Below are positions 706 through 46,830 of a stretch of DNA of 64,000 nt, in pieces (within the stretch, counting starts at the first letter, position 1; every line of letters begins with the position of its first letter). The translations under genes were made by a program, and so were the position numbers. The notes beneath the pieces are model-generated. The model ran no database searches. It had not been told where the DNA came from and was given only the letters and a program-made list of their open reading frames with translations. This DNA comes from an uncultured Porphyromonadaceae bacterium (GTDB lineage Bacteria; Bacteroidota; Bacteroidia; Bacteroidales; Muribaculaceae). The stretch is from positions 242,837 to 306,836 of the forward strand of contig CANSRU010000001.1 of assembly GCA_947649495.1 (NCBI GenBank). The letters run 5' to 3'.

Positions 706-2436
706 TTAACGGCGCTTTTTCGAGGTGCGACGCTTAGCCGACGATTTTTTCTTGGACGATGATTTACGTGATTTCGACGCTGCCGCCTTAGATTTTTTCG
801 ACGATGATTTCACGCTGCTACCCTTGGCTGGAATCTTGAGTTTCTGACCTATGGATATACGGGTAGTGCCTTTGCTCATGCCATTGGCCTGCTGTATGGC
901 CTGCACTGTCGTGCCGTATTTGCGGGCGAGGCGGTCGAGGTTGTCACCGCTTTTCACCACATGTGTAGTGGGCTTGGGCTCGGCCTTTTTAGCCTTCGCG
1001 CTCTTCTTCGATGCCGAGGTCCGGTCGGCACGCTTTGAAGAATAGGACGACTCATAACGGTCGGAACCTGATTGTGAGCGGGAGCGCACATTGTTGCGCG
1101 TTGAAGCAGCCGCCATGGTCTCGTTGCGTTCTATAACCTCTATCACCAGCTCATCGCCCTCTTTCACCTTGCCACGGCGCAAGTTGTTCCAGCGTTTCAC
1201 ATCAGTAGCGCTCACACCATACTTCTTGGCAATGTCGCGTAGGTTCTCGCCACGACCCACCACGTGTGTCTTCTTGACAACATTGACGGCAGCCATGCCA
1301 TCGCCACCGCCGCCATTCAACGACGCCGAATCGGACTGGCCGGGGACACGACGCGGTTTTCCGGGCTCAACATAGGTGCGGCGCGCATATTCGTCCATGT
1401 CGTGATTGAGTATAGCGTCTTTGCTTATTATATAACTCAGGCACTGCTGCGAAGGCAATACGAGCGAGTAGGGATGATGATCACCGGGAATGATATCCTT
1501 GCGGAACTGAGGATTGAGCATGCGTATCTCCTCCACCGGTATGTTGAGCACATCAGCAATCTGGCGGAAGTGCACGCGGTCGGCCACCTCAACCGTATCG
1601 GTCACGAGTTGTTTTTTAACGAGTGTCGGAGCTATTCCGTAGCGGTTGTGATAGTTCATCACAAAATTGGCGGCAATGAATGCAGGCACATAACCGCGAG
1701 TCTCGCTCGGGAGATAATTGTATATCTCCCAGAAGTCCTTCTTACCTCCACCTGCGCGCCGCAGAGCTTTGTTCACATTGCCGGGGCCGCAATTGTATGC
1801 GGCTATTGCAAGCGACCAGTCGTTGTAGATGGAATAGAGCTGCTTGAGGAATTTGGCGGCATAGCGGGATGACATGCGGGGATCGCGACGCTGGTCGACA
1901 AGCGAGTTAACCTCCATGCCAAGACCGGTGGCGGTGGCAGGCATGAATTGCCATAGGCCGCCGGCTCCTGCGCGCGACACAGCGTTGGGGTTTATAGCCG
2001 ATTCGATGACGGGAAGATACTGGAGCTCGAGCGGAAGTCCCTCCTTGACAAGCTCCTCGATGAATATCTTGCCATAATAATTATGCAATGCCAGCATGTC
2101 GGCCACCAGACCGCGCCGCTTTCCGAGATACATGTCGATGAGTTTCCCCACCACACCATTATAAGGCATCTCTATCTCAGTGGGCAGACGGCTCAGCAGC
2201 TCCTCATATTCTTTGGGATTGCCAAGCTTCACTTTTCCGCCTTCGACAGGCTGCTCGGTGTAGTTTTTCAGATAAAAATTCTCCTCAAGCTCGCGGGATT
2301 TAGTCTCGAAACTTTCGGGAGGTATAACATTATCGTCGGTGATTGAGTGCTTTATGTCAAGAATAGAGGGTCCGGCCCATGCCATAATCGACATTGCGCC
2401 GGCCATCATCGTGACATATATTCTTCGAAAAGTCAT
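706..2436 (-). CDS. MltD-like membrane-bound lytic transglycosylase with two LysM domains
   Basis: Cleaves peptidoglycan glycan strands in the periplasm, forming 1,6-anhydro-muramoyl ends. The 576 residues show a signal peptide ending near AWA-G (residue 21) and an SLT domain at about 115-270. The catalytic Glu145 sits in LPVIESAINP, followed by AGAGGLWQFMPATA and IAAYNCGPGNVNKA. Two LysM modules for peptidoglycan binding follow, starting at about 375 (THVVGRGENLRDIA) and 485 (THVVKSGDNLDRLA). The last 45 or so residues are almost only Ser, Lys, Arg and Ala, an unusually basic tail. The gene ends the parA-parB-DUF5683 cluster, 39 bases after DUF5683, so it is probably co-transcribed. No lipobox is present, unlike E. 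coli MltD. Confidence 0.92.
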   Translation of the reverse strand: MTFRRIYVTMMAGAMSIMAWAGPSILDIKHSITDDNVIPPESFETKSRELEENFYLKNYTEQPVEGGKVKLGNPKEYEELLSRLPTEIEMPYNGVVGKLIDMYLGKRRGLVADMLALHNYYGKIFIEELVKEGLPLELQYLPVIESAINPNAVSRAGAGGLWQFMPATATGLGMEVNSLVDQRRDPRMSSRYAAKFLKQLYSIYNDWSLAIAAYNCGPGNVNKALRRAGGGKKDFWEIYNYLPSETRGYVPAFIAANFVMNYHNRYGIAPTLVKKQLVTDTVEVADRVHFRQIADVLNIPVEEIRMLNPQFRKDIIPGDHHPYSLVLPSQQCLSYIISKDAILNHDMDEYARRTYVEPGKPRRVPGQSDSASLNGGGGDGMAAVNVVKKTHVVGRGENLRDIAKKYGVSATDVKRWNNLRRGKVKEGDELVIEVIERNETMAAASTRNNVRSRSQSGSDRYESSYSSKRADRTSASKKSAKAKKAEPKPTTHVVKSGDNLDRLARKYGTTVQAIQQANGMSKGTTRISIGQKLKIPAKGSSVKSSSKKSKAAASKSRKSSSKKKSSAKRRTSKKRR

Positions 2437-2475: not shown

Positions 2476-3327
2476 TCAGAAATTAAATGCAAGTTGCAGT
2501 CCCAAAGCCGGAAAGGGCGACGTATTGTCGTGAATCAGCGCCGGGGCCACATGCATTGACAAGTCGGGAGAGATATCGAAATTCGTGAGAGAGGCATCGA
2601 CATAGGCATCGACAATAGCTACAAGATACACACCCACCATACTTATTATACACAGGTCGCGGTTACGCCGGTAATAGTCCTTGCGCGACTTCAACGTGCG
2701 CTCGAGCCACGATTTATTGAGGGTGGACTCGTCGGTATTCGGCGGAAAGAAGTCCATATAACTGTTGGTATTGGGGTCATTGTCCATGAAGTCTGTATAG
2801 GCACGCGTGTAGTCGCGTAGCATTGTATTGTTCCACGAGGCTCCGTAGCCAAGCCCCATGAATCCGCCAATCACTATTGGCAACTTCCAGTAACGGCGGT
2901 TGTATATCTGGCCGAGACCAGGGAATAAAGCCGAAAGCCACACCGCACGCGTAGGATCGGGGATGAACACTTTTTCGCCATTCTGACGCGGACCGTCGAC
3001 CAATGTGCTGTCGGAAAACAGTTGCACATCGGGCGAGTCGACAACAGGCACTGTATCGACCGGCATCATCACCAACGAATCGGCCTTTGACATAAAGACC
3101 TCATCCTCCACCACCGCAGAGCCCTCGGGCAACGGCTGCGAAAGCGATATGCTGTCAGGAAGGGAAGGCATTGATTTCGGTGCACGACGCTCGGGACGTA
3201 CCGGACGGTTGGGATTTGCTGAAAAAATGTTAAACGGCACAATCAGCATTACCAGAAGCATGCCGACAGCGTATTTCAACGATATAGTCCTGTGTTTGCC
3301 TTGTTGTTGCACCGTGTTCGTAATCAT
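2476..3327 (-). CDS. DUF5683 family membrane protein
   Basis: 283 residues, function unknown. There is an N-terminal hydrophobic segment (about 15-38), then a Pro/Ser/Asp-rich linker. The conserved DUF5683 core begins at about 128 with PTRAVWLSALFPGLGQIYNRRYWK and holds two further membrane segments (IVIGGFMGLGYGASW and IISMVGVYLVAIVDAYVDA). The GLGQ-Y-N-R and DAYVDA motifs are the family hallmarks. The gene sits between parB and the transglycosylase on the same strand with short gaps. This arrangement suggests an envelope role linked to cell growth or division, but that is inference from neighbours only. Confidence 0.8.
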   Translation of the reverse strand: MITNTVQQQGKHRTISLKYAVGMLLVMLIVPFNIFSANPNRPVRPERRAPKSMPSLPDSISLSQPLPEGSAVVEDEVFMSKADSLVMMPVDTVPVVDSPDVQLFSDSTLVDGPRQNGEKVFIPDPTRAVWLSALFPGLGQIYNRRYWKLPIVIGGFMGLGYGASWNNTMLRDYTRAYTDFMDNDPNTNSYMDFFPPNTDESTLNKSWLERTLKSRKDYYRRNRDLCIISMVGVYLVAIVDAYVDASLTNFDISPDLSMHVAPALIHDNTSPFPALGLQLAFNF

Positions 3328-42414: not shown

Positions 42415-44118
42415 TTAGAATTGCATCTTCTCCCACTTGGCTTTCATGCTCGCCGACACATTGACCGATGGCGTCTGCAATTTGTCATTCTCAAGCATGG
42501 AATTTTTCTTCACTTCACTTGAAAGCGTCTTGAACAGCTCACCAAACGATGATTTACCCTCGGTTTTCTTCAAGTGGTCAAGCAGAAAATAGGTGAACAT
42601 ACCATGCCGTTTATCCTTATATGCCAATGCTGTTTCATCGTCCGATGCCGCCGTGAACACCACCATATTACCGCTGAGCACCTCGTTTTTTGGCTTAATT
42701 GCCACACCGCGCGCTGCCACGAGAGCCTGCCCCGAGCCACGCTTCACACCGCTGAAACAAGCATCAAGCAGCACGGTGACACTCTGCGTTTTTATCTTGC
42801 CCAACCGAGCATACATATCGCTCAGTTTGAAACATGTGGTTATATCCTTCGGGAATCCGTCGGTAGGTATGAGATAGGCGGTCTTGTCCTTTTCGTTCGG
42901 AATCCCATGACCTGCATAATAGAACAAAATCTTGGAATTACCGCCCGATATGTCGGCCATGGTTTCTATCCAATTAAGGGCGCGTTTTATATCTGTATAA
43001 GATGCGTTAATAAAAGTACGTACCTGTTTTTCAGGAATACCGAGCGTCTTTATACAATATTCTTTGAACACATTACCATCACGTTCGGCATATTCCACCT
43101 CAGGCACATCTTCATATTTCTCATTGGCTATTATTATACAGTAGGTGTTGGCATTCTTGTCTGTTTTGACCATAGGAATATCCATATCAACATCCACAGG
43201 CGGAAGCTCAGGCCGGACCTGAGCCACAGATGCAGTAGCCATAAGCTCCGGTTGCGATTGTGGTTGCTGCTGTGACTGCACCGGAGCTGACTTTTCCTTA
43301 TCAGCCTTGCCACGACGGCCTCCGAACAGACCTCCAAGCATACCCTTCACGCCACCTGACTCTCCATTGTTCTTCTTAGCCTTTTCCTCCTTCTCTTTGC
43401 GTTTGCGCTCCTTCTCCTGCTCTTTTTCTTTATCCTTGGCCGCCTGTGCCAAAAGTTCCTGCTGCTGTTTGAGCAGTTTTTCCTGTTCTTTAAGCTGAGC
43501 TTTCAGTCGGGCAGCCTCCTCTGACTCTTTATCTTTCCGGACATCATTGGCCGATTTATCATCATCGCCATGTCTGGCCGTTTTCTCTTTAACGACAGAA
43601 ACCACCGACGATGACAGACTGGAGACTTTCTCTTTAGCCGCTGCAAACAGCGATTTATCATCGCCATCCTTGACCCATATTTCATGCCCATGGCGCAACG
43701 ACGATTCTTCTATCTGAGCTGAAGCTATGAGAAACGACATACCGGCATTGTCGCGAAACGCATTTTTACCAACATGACGTACAGTAGAAGGAATCAATAC
43801 CGACTGTAGCTTACGGAACTCATTGAAACAGAACTTATCTATCTCCTCAACGCCCTCCTCAATCACCAGATTCACCGTGGAATAATTCACTCCATTCATG
43901 AAGGTACTCACAGACTTCACCGGATAGTTTTCGGCTTTATATGTAATCACCGCCGGTATGGTAACTTCGGGAGCCTTACTGTCGAAACTTTTTATACATG
44001 CCTTACCATGAGATATTTTCCCTTTGAATTCCACACCATTGTAAGAGTATGTAAATCCCTGGGCCATGGCGGAAAGTACTGGCAGTAGAAGATTCAAAAC
44101 TATAATTATGCGTTTCAT
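42415..44118 (-). CDS. Secreted caspase-fold (C14) protein with leucine-rich-repeat-like and coiled-coil parts
   Basis: 567 residues. Signal peptide ending at MAQ (residue 20); a BspA-like repeat region (about 60-125: VEEIDKFCFNEFRKL..., STVRHVGKNAF); a Lys/Glu-rich coiled coil (about 196-250); a Gln/Pro linker; and a caspase domain from about 325. The catalytic pair is in place: His404 in YYAGHG and Cys454 in LLDACFSG, so it is probably an active cysteine protease in the periplasm or at the surface. Partner genes of the DUF4384 and LPP20 types are just upstream, and the beta-barrel gene just downstream. Substrates unknown. Confidence 0.85.
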   Translation of the reverse strand: MKRIIIVLNLLLPVLSAMAQGFTYSYNGVEFKGKISHGKACIKSFDSKAPEVTIPAVITYKAENYPVKSVSTFMNGVNYSTVNLVIEEGVEEIDKFCFNEFRKLQSVLIPSTVRHVGKNAFRDNAGMSFLIASAQIEESSLRHGHEIWVKDGDDKSLFAAAKEKVSSLSSSVVSVVKEKTARHGDDDKSANDVRKDKESEEAARLKAQLKEQEKLLKQQQELLAQAAKDKEKEQEKERKRKEKEEKAKKNNGESGGVKGMLGGLFGGRRGKADKEKSAPVQSQQQPQSQPELMATASVAQVRPELPPVDVDMDIPMVKTDKNANTYCIIIANEKYEDVPEVEYAERDGNVFKEYCIKTLGIPEKQVRTFINASYTDIKRALNWIETMADISGGNSKILFYYAGHGIPNEKDKTAYLIPTDGFPKDITTCFKLSDMYARLGKIKTQSVTVLLDACFSGVKRGSGQALVAARGVAIKPKNEVLSGNMVVFTAASDDETALAYKDKRHGMFTYFLLDHLKKTEGKSSFGELFKTLSSEVKKNSMLENDKLQTPSVNVSASMKAKWEKMQF

Positions 44119-44148: not shown

Positions 44149-45024
44149 TCATGGACGTGAAGCAATAGTTATAGGCAAGCGGATAAGTTGCATCTCAGGG
44201 TCACGGCGCCGACACTTTGCAAGCCACTTCTGAAACTCAGGTTCAGGCAGTTCACGAGGAAGCAATTCGCCGGAGGCCTCGCTATCGAGAGCCTTTGTAT
44301 AAGGCTGCGGGGAGAATATCACATACACCATATTATTCTCTACCGGACGGGATGCAGTAAGATAATATTCCTCAGTAAACTCATCCCCCGAACCACCATC
44401 GAACAACATGTGGCGTTTGTTGGCCTTAACCGGGAAATTAGCATCTGCCTGCGAAGGATATGGCAAAAGACACGACACCGTACCATCGCCGTCTGAAAGA
44501 TACACCGTAAGATAGCCATTGGCCGTAGACTGGAACGAAAGATAAATCTGGTCACCGTCCACGAATCTTTCTGCCCGGTCGCGCTCTGTCATCCCATTGC
44601 GCAACAGATAGGCCCGACAGTCCACGGTTGCCGCAGCAAGCTCTCGTGCCTTACCTTTCACCCTTACCTTTATCATCAGCATTCCATCGGCATAGGCAAC
44701 ATCATAAACCGGTTCACCGATTGTCTCTATCCATTCACCCTTTACCTCACTCATACCCAACGACTGGATATCACTGCGGCTCTCAGCTTCACCCTCGCCC
44801 TTGTTCACATTTACGACATGCGAGATATTGGTCTGGGACACATTAGTACCAAACTCCTCCGCTATCGCCTGAATCTGAGCACGTTCGAGAGCTATAGCCT
44901 TGGCCTGCTCAAGACTTACATTATCGGGCGGATAGTACGTGTACTCACACTCCACGGTTTTTACCTTTGGAGCGGCAAATGCCGTGATACACGACATCAA
45001 CAATATGAAAACCGACTTGCGCAT
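44149..45024 (-). CDS. Secreted DUF4384-domain protein
   Basis: 291 residues with a signal peptide (cleavage near AFAA-P). The N-terminal half has an LPP20/FlgT-like pattern (SLEQAKAIALERAQIQAIAEEFG, VNVNKGEGEAESRS), the C-terminal half a DUF4384 domain (DQIYLSFQSTANGYLTVYLSDGDGTVSCLLP). DUF4384 often accompanies caspase-fold proteins in other bacteria. It sits 19 bases after the LPP20-like gene and 30 bases before the caspase gene. Confidence 0.75.
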   Translation of the reverse strand: MRKSVFILLMSCITAFAAPKVKTVECEYTYYPPDNVSLEQAKAIALERAQIQAIAEEFGTNVSQTNISHVVNVNKGEGEAESRSDIQSLGMSEVKGEWIETIGEPVYDVAYADGMLMIKVRVKGKARELAAATVDCRAYLLRNGMTERDRAERFVDGDQIYLSFQSTANGYLTVYLSDGDGTVSCLLPYPSQADANFPVKANKRHMLFDGGSGDEFTEEYYLTASRPVENNMVYVIFSPQPYTKALDSEASGELLPRELPEPEFQKWLAKCRRRDPEMQLIRLPITIASRP

Positions 45025-45043: not shown

Positions 45044-45718
45044 TTACCAGCCCATTATCTCATCCAGTTTGCCCCGGAGCTCTTCTGAATCATCCTTCAG
45101 CCCCTGATATACGGCTTTCTTTGCCGCCGCGTTGGCCATCTGGGAGTTATAGGCTATACGTGTCAGCACCTCCTTGTTCTTGTTCTTAAGAGTGCGGTAA
45201 ACCTCCACCACAGTTATAACGCGACCGATGCTTTGGGATATGAGATTACGGCTTTCCGTTATGGTCTTTACCACCGATGCCGCCTGCTCGGCCGACAGTT
45301 GCTCGTTCGATACTGAATTCTCCACAATCCCTGTCACTTGACTTTGAATCATTCCCACAAGATTCTGCATGGCAATTTCGCGTGAGCTCACCTTGGCTGC
45401 ATCGTAATTCTCACCAATGCTCATACCCTCGGCCATAAGATATTTAGGGAATCCTTCTTCGTCATACTCCATCTGCATGAGATACGAACGGTCAAACTGC
45501 CTTTCGAGAGGAAGCGCGCCGGGAGCGGAACCCCAGCCCGCCTTCTCCATTTTCTTGGCTTCTTTCTGAGCCGCCTTGGAGGCTTTTTCGTTAAGTTCTT
45601 TTTTCGACTCCTTGCGGATTTCCTTGCGTTCTTTCGCCAATTCTTTGTAATTCTGTGCCGTAACAGGCATTGTTACCGACACCAGTGCGAGAGCCAGGAT
45701 ACAGGTTGCTATTTTCAT
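45044..45718 (-). CDS. LPP20-like secreted protein, first gene of the caspase operon
   Basis: 224 residues with a signal peptide (cleavage near PVTA-Q, residue 21). A charged helical segment follows (KELAKERKEIRKESKKELNE), then an LPP20-like alpha/beta core (AKVSSREIAMQNLVGMIQS and VVEVYRTL). No lipobox is seen, so it should be soluble in the periplasm. Its core resembles the N-terminal half of the next gene product. It lies immediately downstream of a long candidate RNA. Confidence 0.7.
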   Translation of the reverse strand: MKIATCILALALVSVTMPVTAQNYKELAKERKEIRKESKKELNEKASKAAQKEAKKMEKAGWGSAPGALPLERQFDRSYLMQMEYDEEGFPKYLMAEGMSIGENYDAAKVSSREIAMQNLVGMIQSQVTGIVENSVSNEQLSAEQAASVVKTITESRNLISQSIGRVITVVEVYRTLKNKNKEVLTRIAYNSQMANAAAKKAVYQGLKDDSEELRGKLDEIMGW

Positions 45719-45784
45719 ATTTATTGAAAAGATAAATATGTCCGTAGTTCCCCGTACCGGACAGGTTATGTCACATAATGATTG

Positions 45785-46149
45785 GTTGGGCTATAAAAAG
45801 AAAAGCGCAGGAACTGTACTTGCTACTTATCCTGCATACTGGGCCTTCGCATTGCCTTCGGTCAAGGATAAGCAACGCAGCGCCCACGCCGATATGTCCG
45901 AATGCAACCGTTCCGCCCAAAAATCACATATCGCCTTCGCTTTCTGACAAGCGCGGGCCATACTCCGGAACGGCATGCTCACAAGAAACATACCCATGGA
46001 CATCTACCGCTGCTTTATCGTGTGACCGGATATTGAAGTTGCGAAGTTCAGTATGCCACAGATAAAACGTCAAGTAAACGTCTTTCTAAAATATAGCGCA
46101 AAATCCCACATACCCATCCCCTCTCATGGAGAATATTCGGCGTAGGTTT
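45785..46149 (-). ncRNA. Candidate structured RNA (about 365 nt) in the 584-base gap before the caspase operon
   Basis: The stretch has a complete promoter on its right (46156-46187) and a terminator-like stem with a T-rich tail on its left (GCAGGA 45807-45812 with TCCTGC 45830-45835, tail T-rich to about 45790 on the minus strand). Between them are nested and adjacent inverted repeats: ATGTCC/GGACAT (about 45894-45899 with 45998-46003), CCGTTCCG/CGGAACGG (45908-45915 with 45966-45973) and CTTATCCT/AGGATAAG (45826-45833 with 45865-45872). A 58-residue frame on the minus strand (45827-46003) and two frames on the plus strand overlap the same bases; none looks like a known protein. I do not recognise rnpB, tmRNA or 6S motifs. 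Confidence 0.5.
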
Positions 46150-46155
46150 GCACGG

Positions 46156-46187
46156 CAAATATACAAAAAATCCTTAACAGTCCAAAA
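46156..46187 (-). promoter_or_regulatory. Promoter of the candidate structured RNA
   Basis: Minus strand TATATTTG (46156-46163), 19 bases, TTTG (46183-46186). A well-formed promoter that points towards 45.7 kb although the first gene starts 430 bases away. Confidence 0.7.
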
Positions 46188-46302: not shown

Positions 46303-46830
46303 TTATTTGAAGAGATCTTTCACCTTGCCGGCAGCTTCGTCGGTAGCATCGGCAGCTTTCTGCTTAAGCTCATCGGCTTTTTCCGATGCCTTATCCTTGA
46401 GCTCCTGAGTTTTATCGGCCACGGCTTCCTTGGTCTCGCTCACCTTGTCGGCGGCGGCATCCTTGGCTTCGGCAGCAGCGTTCTTCACACTGTCGGCAGC
46501 AGCCGATGTGCTCTCGCCGATCTTATCGAGAGCGCCGTCCACAGTTGAAAGTACTCCTGACAATGCGGGAGCTTTCTCCTTCACCACAGGCTCTATCTGC
46601 GAGAGATATTTCTTGGCCTCGTCCACCTTGCCTTCGTCCACGAGTTTCTGTGCGTATGCCTTGGCCTCCTCCACATAGACTTTCAGACTGTCGGGATTGG
46701 TACAGTTCTGGATTTTGGTGGCTAATGCCGATTCATTCGCTTCTACGGCTTTCTCCGATGTGTTGCCACCGCAGGAGGCCAACATCGCCACTGAGGCGGC
46801 TACAGCAATCGAAAGTACAATCTTTTTCAT
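46303..46830 (-). CDS. Alanine/lysine-rich helical lipoprotein
   Basis: 175 residues with a lipobox MLASC (Cys20). After a short spacer comes a long, regular helix rich in Ala, Lys, Glu and Asp (KYLSQIEPVVKEKAP..., then about 120-170 with repeats such as AAADKVSETKEAVADK). It resembles apolipoprotein- or LEA-like amphipathic helices that bind membranes or prevent aggregation. No known domain. Own terminator; the AT-rich stretch upstream has no clear promoter box. Confidence 0.75.
   Translation of the reverse strand: MKKIVLSIAVAASVAMLASCGGNTSEKAVEANESALATKIQNCTNPDSLKVYVEEAKAYAQKLVDEGKVDEAKKYLSQIEPVVKEKAPALSGVLSTVDGALDKIGESTSAAADSVKNAAAEAKDAAADKVSETKEAVADKTQELKDKASEKADELKQKAADATDEAAGKVKDLFK

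Follow-up and report, generated by a model that had tools for sequence, protein, structure and literature searches.

A large multicopy leader RNA candidate ahead of a caspase operon and unrelated genes in Bacteroidales

The gap ahead of a caspase operon in a Muribaculaceae genome raises the question of whether it holds a free-standing RNA or a leader that belongs to the genes behind it. In the window (the whole 64,000-nt stretch of DNA that was analyzed), 584 intergenic nt separate the minus-strand genes 46830-46303 and 45718-45044. A sequence-only reading had placed there a large structured RNA equipped with both a promoter and a terminator, and had judged it "more like an RNA than a leader alone". 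The upstream gene (46303-46830) codes for an Ala/Lys-rich protein of 175 aa, whose matches to Apolipoprotein and LEA_4 were weak and below the cut-off, and it has a strong hairpin terminator on its 3' side (46271-46237). Between 46186 and 45739, the minus strand carries a promoter, a structured RNA of about 350 nt, a U-run, and an extra hairpin, with the caspase operon directly behind. Gene 1 of this operon (45044..45718, start codon at 45718) encodes 224 aa with no Pfam family above the cut-off, gene 2 (44149..45024) a DUF4384 protein, and gene 3 (42415..44118) a protein with a caspase domain (Peptidase_C14) and BspA-type LRR; all three are on the minus strand, and their spacing suggests that they are co-transcribed. 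The LRR_5 (BspA-type) stretch of the caspase-domain protein represents the domain family found most commonly behind other copies of the leader.

The 365-nt stretch folded on the minus strand with a z of -4.64, and none of 100 shuffles folded as well. The earlier reading was right in seeing here a large structured RNA that has a promoter to itself and closes like a terminator. For the plus strand, which has largely the same inverted repeats, z was -2.61 and one of 100 shuffles was as good. The promoter (46156..46186, minus strand) is present as had been read, with TTTG at 46183-46186, 19 bases, and TATATTTG at 46156-46163. Of 215 copies of the element, 195 had TANNTTTG, which we take to be the Bacteroidetes promoter motif, on the 5' side of the core, against 19.4 expected from base shuffles. 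Judging from the promoter, the transcript would start at about 46149, and the fold and the alignment place a variable hairpin in this 5' part (46100..46149).

A BLAST search with the intergenic gap gave matches in 109 of the 297 genomes of the window's family, with two conserved blocks flanking a variable middle. R1, a covariance model built from 31 sequences and covering the element's 3' half, detected 12 copies in the window's genome at E<=1.3e-9. Within the family, R1 matched in 36 of the 38 genomes sampled (0-17 copies each, median 5, 211 in total), and under strict filters at least 70 of 295 genomes and at least 47 of 184 genera of the order were positive. A strict pattern search of named genomes found at least 118 stretches. 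Carriers among the matches listed were Bacteroidaceae, Prevotellaceae, Muribaculaceae, Paludibacteraceae, Porphyromonadaceae, Odoribacter, and similar groups; Xylanibacter rarus and Prevotellamassilia timonensis were among the carrier species. The matches listed also included two labeled "uncultured bacterium" and four assemblies labeled Firmicutes, Clostridia, or Lachnospiraceae (L111, L128, L137, L152), which are likely misbinned. In a phylum sample of 296 genomes with strict filters, the sole positive among the matches listed was the window's own genome; absence outside Bacteroidales is judged from this sample and from the titles of the pattern matches.

Copies were also seen on plasmids. 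One lies ahead of a hypothetical protein on plasmid pBdorCL06T03-4 of the cultured commensal strain Phocaeicola dorei CL06T03C03 (L239, 4138-4257), and a P. vulgatus plasmid has a similar match; one of these two plasmid matches was confirmed with R1. At another locus (L015), two leaders diverge about 1.0 kb apart (1347-1470, minus strand, and 2485-2606, plus strand), and a long frame follows each of them.

For the structural analysis, 238 model matches were reduced to 226 pooled copies by removing eight antisense shadows and four duplicates; seven of the 226 (fewer than six matches, or at an edge) were dropped from the covariation sets, leaving 219, and helix z-scores were computed on 214 copies. 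These compare native with swapped pairs, a control that leaves the relatedness among copies in the scores. All features described below are on the minus strand. A small hairpin, P1 (GAAAGACGTTTACTTGACGTTTTATC, 46061..46086), was judged by eye from the alignment. The P2 arms (46017..46063; 46055-46063 with 46017-46027) close the 5' arm, with z = -21.0. Two long-range helices gave the strongest signals: Ja, which pairs 46049..46056 with 45834..45841 (z = -57.6), and Jb, which pairs 46023..46028 (CGGTCA) with 45859-45864 (z = -62.2). Hairpin H1 (46035..46049) exposes the loop CTTCGCA (46040-46046), whose partner is the loop TGCGAAG (45845-45851) of hairpin H2 (45842..45856), and this 7-bp loop-loop contact is rebuilt in many versions among the copies. 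In the sets used for z-scores, complementarity with H2 had served to find H1, which makes the loop-loop figure there circular; the 7-bp result comes from a separate analysis free of this circularity.

Helix P3 is formed by a 5' strand at 45989..46013, which includes strand X, and a 3' strand at 45877..45898, which contains strand Z (GGCGTGGG, 45883-45890). The tip between them (45899..45988) is not conserved between copies. Of the nested repeats in the sequence-only reading, both ATGTCC/GGACAT (45894-45899/45998-46003) and CCGTTCCG/CGGAACGG (45908-45915/45966-45973) are present; the latter pair, in the tip, is no feature of the family, because the tip varies in length and sequence between copies. 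The conserved helices are others, such as 46049-46056 with 45834-45841 and 46040-46046 with 45845-45851. The 5' strand of P4 (TTGCTTATCC, 45866..45875) has its partner within 45820-45835 (z = -22.0). This P4 3' strand (45820..45835) includes GCAGGA (45830-45835), which doubles as the 5' arm of a local terminator hairpin, a pairing with z = -11.9.

Across the copies, G-U pairs numbered 702 and A-C mismatches 99, which matches what an RNA on the transcript strand predicts. The covariation backing for the secondary and tertiary structure, predicted from these comparisons, is overwhelming. Covariation had been suggested as the check on the original observation, and it bears the observation out: compensatory changes keep the stems, and the element is conserved far beyond close strains. 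Protein-like conservation, which would have spoken against an RNA, was not found for the 58-residue frame, which is broken in the near-orthologue L006, where a stop follows nine codons after the matching start and the C-terminal half lies in another frame.

At the 3' end, the stem GCAGGA/TCCTGC (45807-45812/45830-45835) and the T-rich tail (45792-45804) are there as had been described. In the family, strand Z pairs with strand Y (TCCTGCGC, 45805..45812), which supplies the 3' side of the closing (terminator) helix; this Z:Y pairing is class-specific, with z = -17.1. The U-run (45792..45804) follows directly: the 9 nt past the closing helix have a mean of 7.08 T, and at least six T in 200 of 214 copies, so that a GC-rich helix adjoins a U-run as in an intrinsic terminator. 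The conserved unit continues beyond the U-run to hairpin H3 (45739..45763), whose loop GGGGAACT (45746-45753) is complementary to strand B (CAGTTCC, 45810..45816). The best B:C duplex covers at least 5 nt of the H3 loop in 172 of 206 copies. The end of H3 lies a median of 19 nt upstream of the start codon, and the U-run a median of 64 nt upstream of it.

The next gene was on the same strand in 196 of the 211 testable copies (15 of the 226 lay too close to a contig end), with gene starts taken from open frames and not from annotation. Among the other 15, seven had an apparently longer opposite frame (five of them also a same-strand frame), and eight had no frame of the required size. The same test outward from the 5' side gave 75 same-strand, 69 opposite-strand, and 57 without a gene (n = 201). 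Same-strand orientation is thus specific to the 3' side, which argues for a 5' leader on the gene's own strand and not a free RNA. The original preference for an RNA over a leader therefore gives way, both to these gene positions and to a structure that continues past the U-run. A free-standing RNA that acts in trans and has both promoter and terminator to itself, the gene behind being a bystander, is consistent with the promoter, the U-run end, and the large size, and Bacteroides does have multicopy sRNA families such as FopS (PMC11697453, in the portion available). We consider it improbable, however, given the short-range same-strand genes and the conserved hairpin past the U-run that complements the RNA, a part that an RNA complete at its terminator could do without.

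Of 25 homologues of operon gene 1, 11 had the leader just upstream, two of these 11 belonging to the window's own genome. The other 14 lacked it, with upstream sequence limited to about 210 nt for two of them (L242 and L258). The same gene thus seems to have gained or lost its leader. A second operon head of this kind occurs in the window's genome (G000:C28:3394-4254; L004, L263), with a product 70% identical to that of the window's gene 1 and its own leader copy. Presence and absence at homologous genes, many copies per genome, and the two Phocaeicola plasmid matches are also what a MITE-like mobile DNA repeat with its own promoter would produce, its structure serving transposition and not regulation. 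Yet the orientation to gene starts is non-random, and compensatory changes keep the pairing in divergent copies, on the transcript strand; we give this explanation very little credence.

The genes behind the leader are unrelated. From 199 distinct downstream proteins, 122 were picked by hand, omitting mainly frames that seemed far from the leader or doubtful, and these contained 68 Pfam families, including BspA-type LRR (12), LysM (3), and LytTR (3). With NCBIfam, five of the 122 were Cys-Xaa-Xaa-Xaa radical-SAM targets. No shared pathway was found among the 122 proteins with Pfam. Small Cys-rich proteins with a common N-terminal segment of the ELQSRREFFKKAAKGALPILGA type recur behind the leader (L025, L098, L110, L121, L122, L128, L166, L171, L173, L174). 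One of the 122 frames, putatively placed behind a leader, has a very strong match to elongation factor Tu (E 3.7e-111).

Taken with the position of the copies, the helix-and-U-run end suggests how the element may act. We favor, at slightly better than even confidence, a cis-acting leader that works by conditional transcription termination. Such a leader would be a built-in switch heading a range of unrelated genes, in which the closing helix Z:Y and the U-run would form a terminator where transcription ends conditionally. The alternative pairing that this switch would need, with strand Z taken up either by X or by Y, has no more than modest support from the comparison of copies. The same leader might instead control translation, with H3, through base pairs to strand B, opening or closing the stretch that leads up to the start codon; the U-run would then be a linker or a protein site. 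The conservation of H3 despite its position past the U-run, its closeness to the start codon, and the overlap of the B:C duplex with its loop are in keeping with this, but the T run right behind a GC-rich covarying helix has the look of an intrinsic terminator, and we rate translational control as rather unlikely. A kissing-hairpin leader RNA resembles put or EAR RNAs. Processive antitermination of this kind, in which the RNA would modify the polymerase to pass later terminators, could be suspected because a kissing-hairpin RNA heads unrelated genes and operons and because folding predicts the rod form; the covarying helix adjoins a U-run of its own, however, and the chance of such a role appears slight in the extreme. 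Around the favored reading of conditional termination, we tentatively propose, at somewhat below even confidence, a new class of control leader with a sensing core of two linked four-way junctions and a 7-bp kissing lock embedded in a terminator. It would be a portable module, Bacteroidales-wide, heading as many as 17 unrelated genes or operons in a single genome and forming a genome-wide regulon with one fold and one signal.

No Rfam 15 family, including RNase P, tmRNA, 6S, and Bacteroidales-1, matched the window above the gathering threshold, which upholds the view that the RNA is not rnpB, tmRNA, or 6S. Four sub-threshold matches near the locus had E values of 2.7-5.8, and a comparison of 15 related loci with Rfam returned a tRNA only. 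The literature search gave no recognizable description of the leader family, the Weinberg 2017 motifs being compared through Rfam alone. As far as these searches show, the family is new.

GOLLD, ROOL, and OLE are free-standing RNAs with loop-loop contacts. They share with the leader a large and intricate structure (PMC12286853, as excerpted); the leader differs in sitting in cis and has no Rfam match. Among the structured RNA candidates of Bacteroidetes in the accessible part of PMC2864571 (Table 1), Bacteroidales-1, Bacteroides-1, Bacteroid-trp, and 6S-flavo have Rfam entries, and none of them matched the window or the 15 related loci; the comparison covers the motifs with Rfam entries, and Bacteroides-2 and GUCCY-hairpin have none in that table. 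Bacteroid, Prevotella, and Porphyromonas do not occur in the main text of PMC11109978 or of PMC8632094, and PMC6429828 mentions Bacteroidetes once, for an insect symbiont. The available part of a B. thetaiotaomicron transcriptome study puts the median length of 5' UTRs at 32 nt and mentions TPP riboswitches, and no description of the leader element was found in that part (PMC7366714). The FopS/GibS paralogous sRNAs of Bacteroides thetaiotaomicron are, like the leader, a multicopy RNA family of Bacteroidaceae, with 12-15 copies per genome (PMC11697453, partial text). Membership of the leader in this family was rejected on size and description: FopS RNAs have a seed termed R1, are about 65-70 nt long and trans-acting (nine intergenic, four antisense, one 3'-derived), as against about 350 nt in cis (same portion of PMC11697453).

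The closest likeness in layout is to riboswitches with transcriptional terminators, such as the HMP-PP riboswitch, described in the accessible section of PMC6478431 as a "terminator-embedded aptamer": a 5' leader with a conserved folded core, a closing helix followed by a U-run, and a gene directly behind. The leader studied here differs in its larger size, in the pseudoknot of its core, in having many unrelated targets in one genome, and in the extra conserved hairpin past the U-run, and its role as a switch is a candidate one.

The earlier observation is confirmed, and it understates the element. A large multicopy leader of no known family heads genes for BspA-type LRR surface proteins, LysM and LytTR proteins, Cys-rich radical-SAM targets, caspase-like proteins, and others in gut Bacteroidales. 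The family gives clear, testable predictions. Should it prove to be a switch, many accessory genes of gut Bacteroidales would be tied to one signal, and the way is open to look for what triggers this orphan switch.
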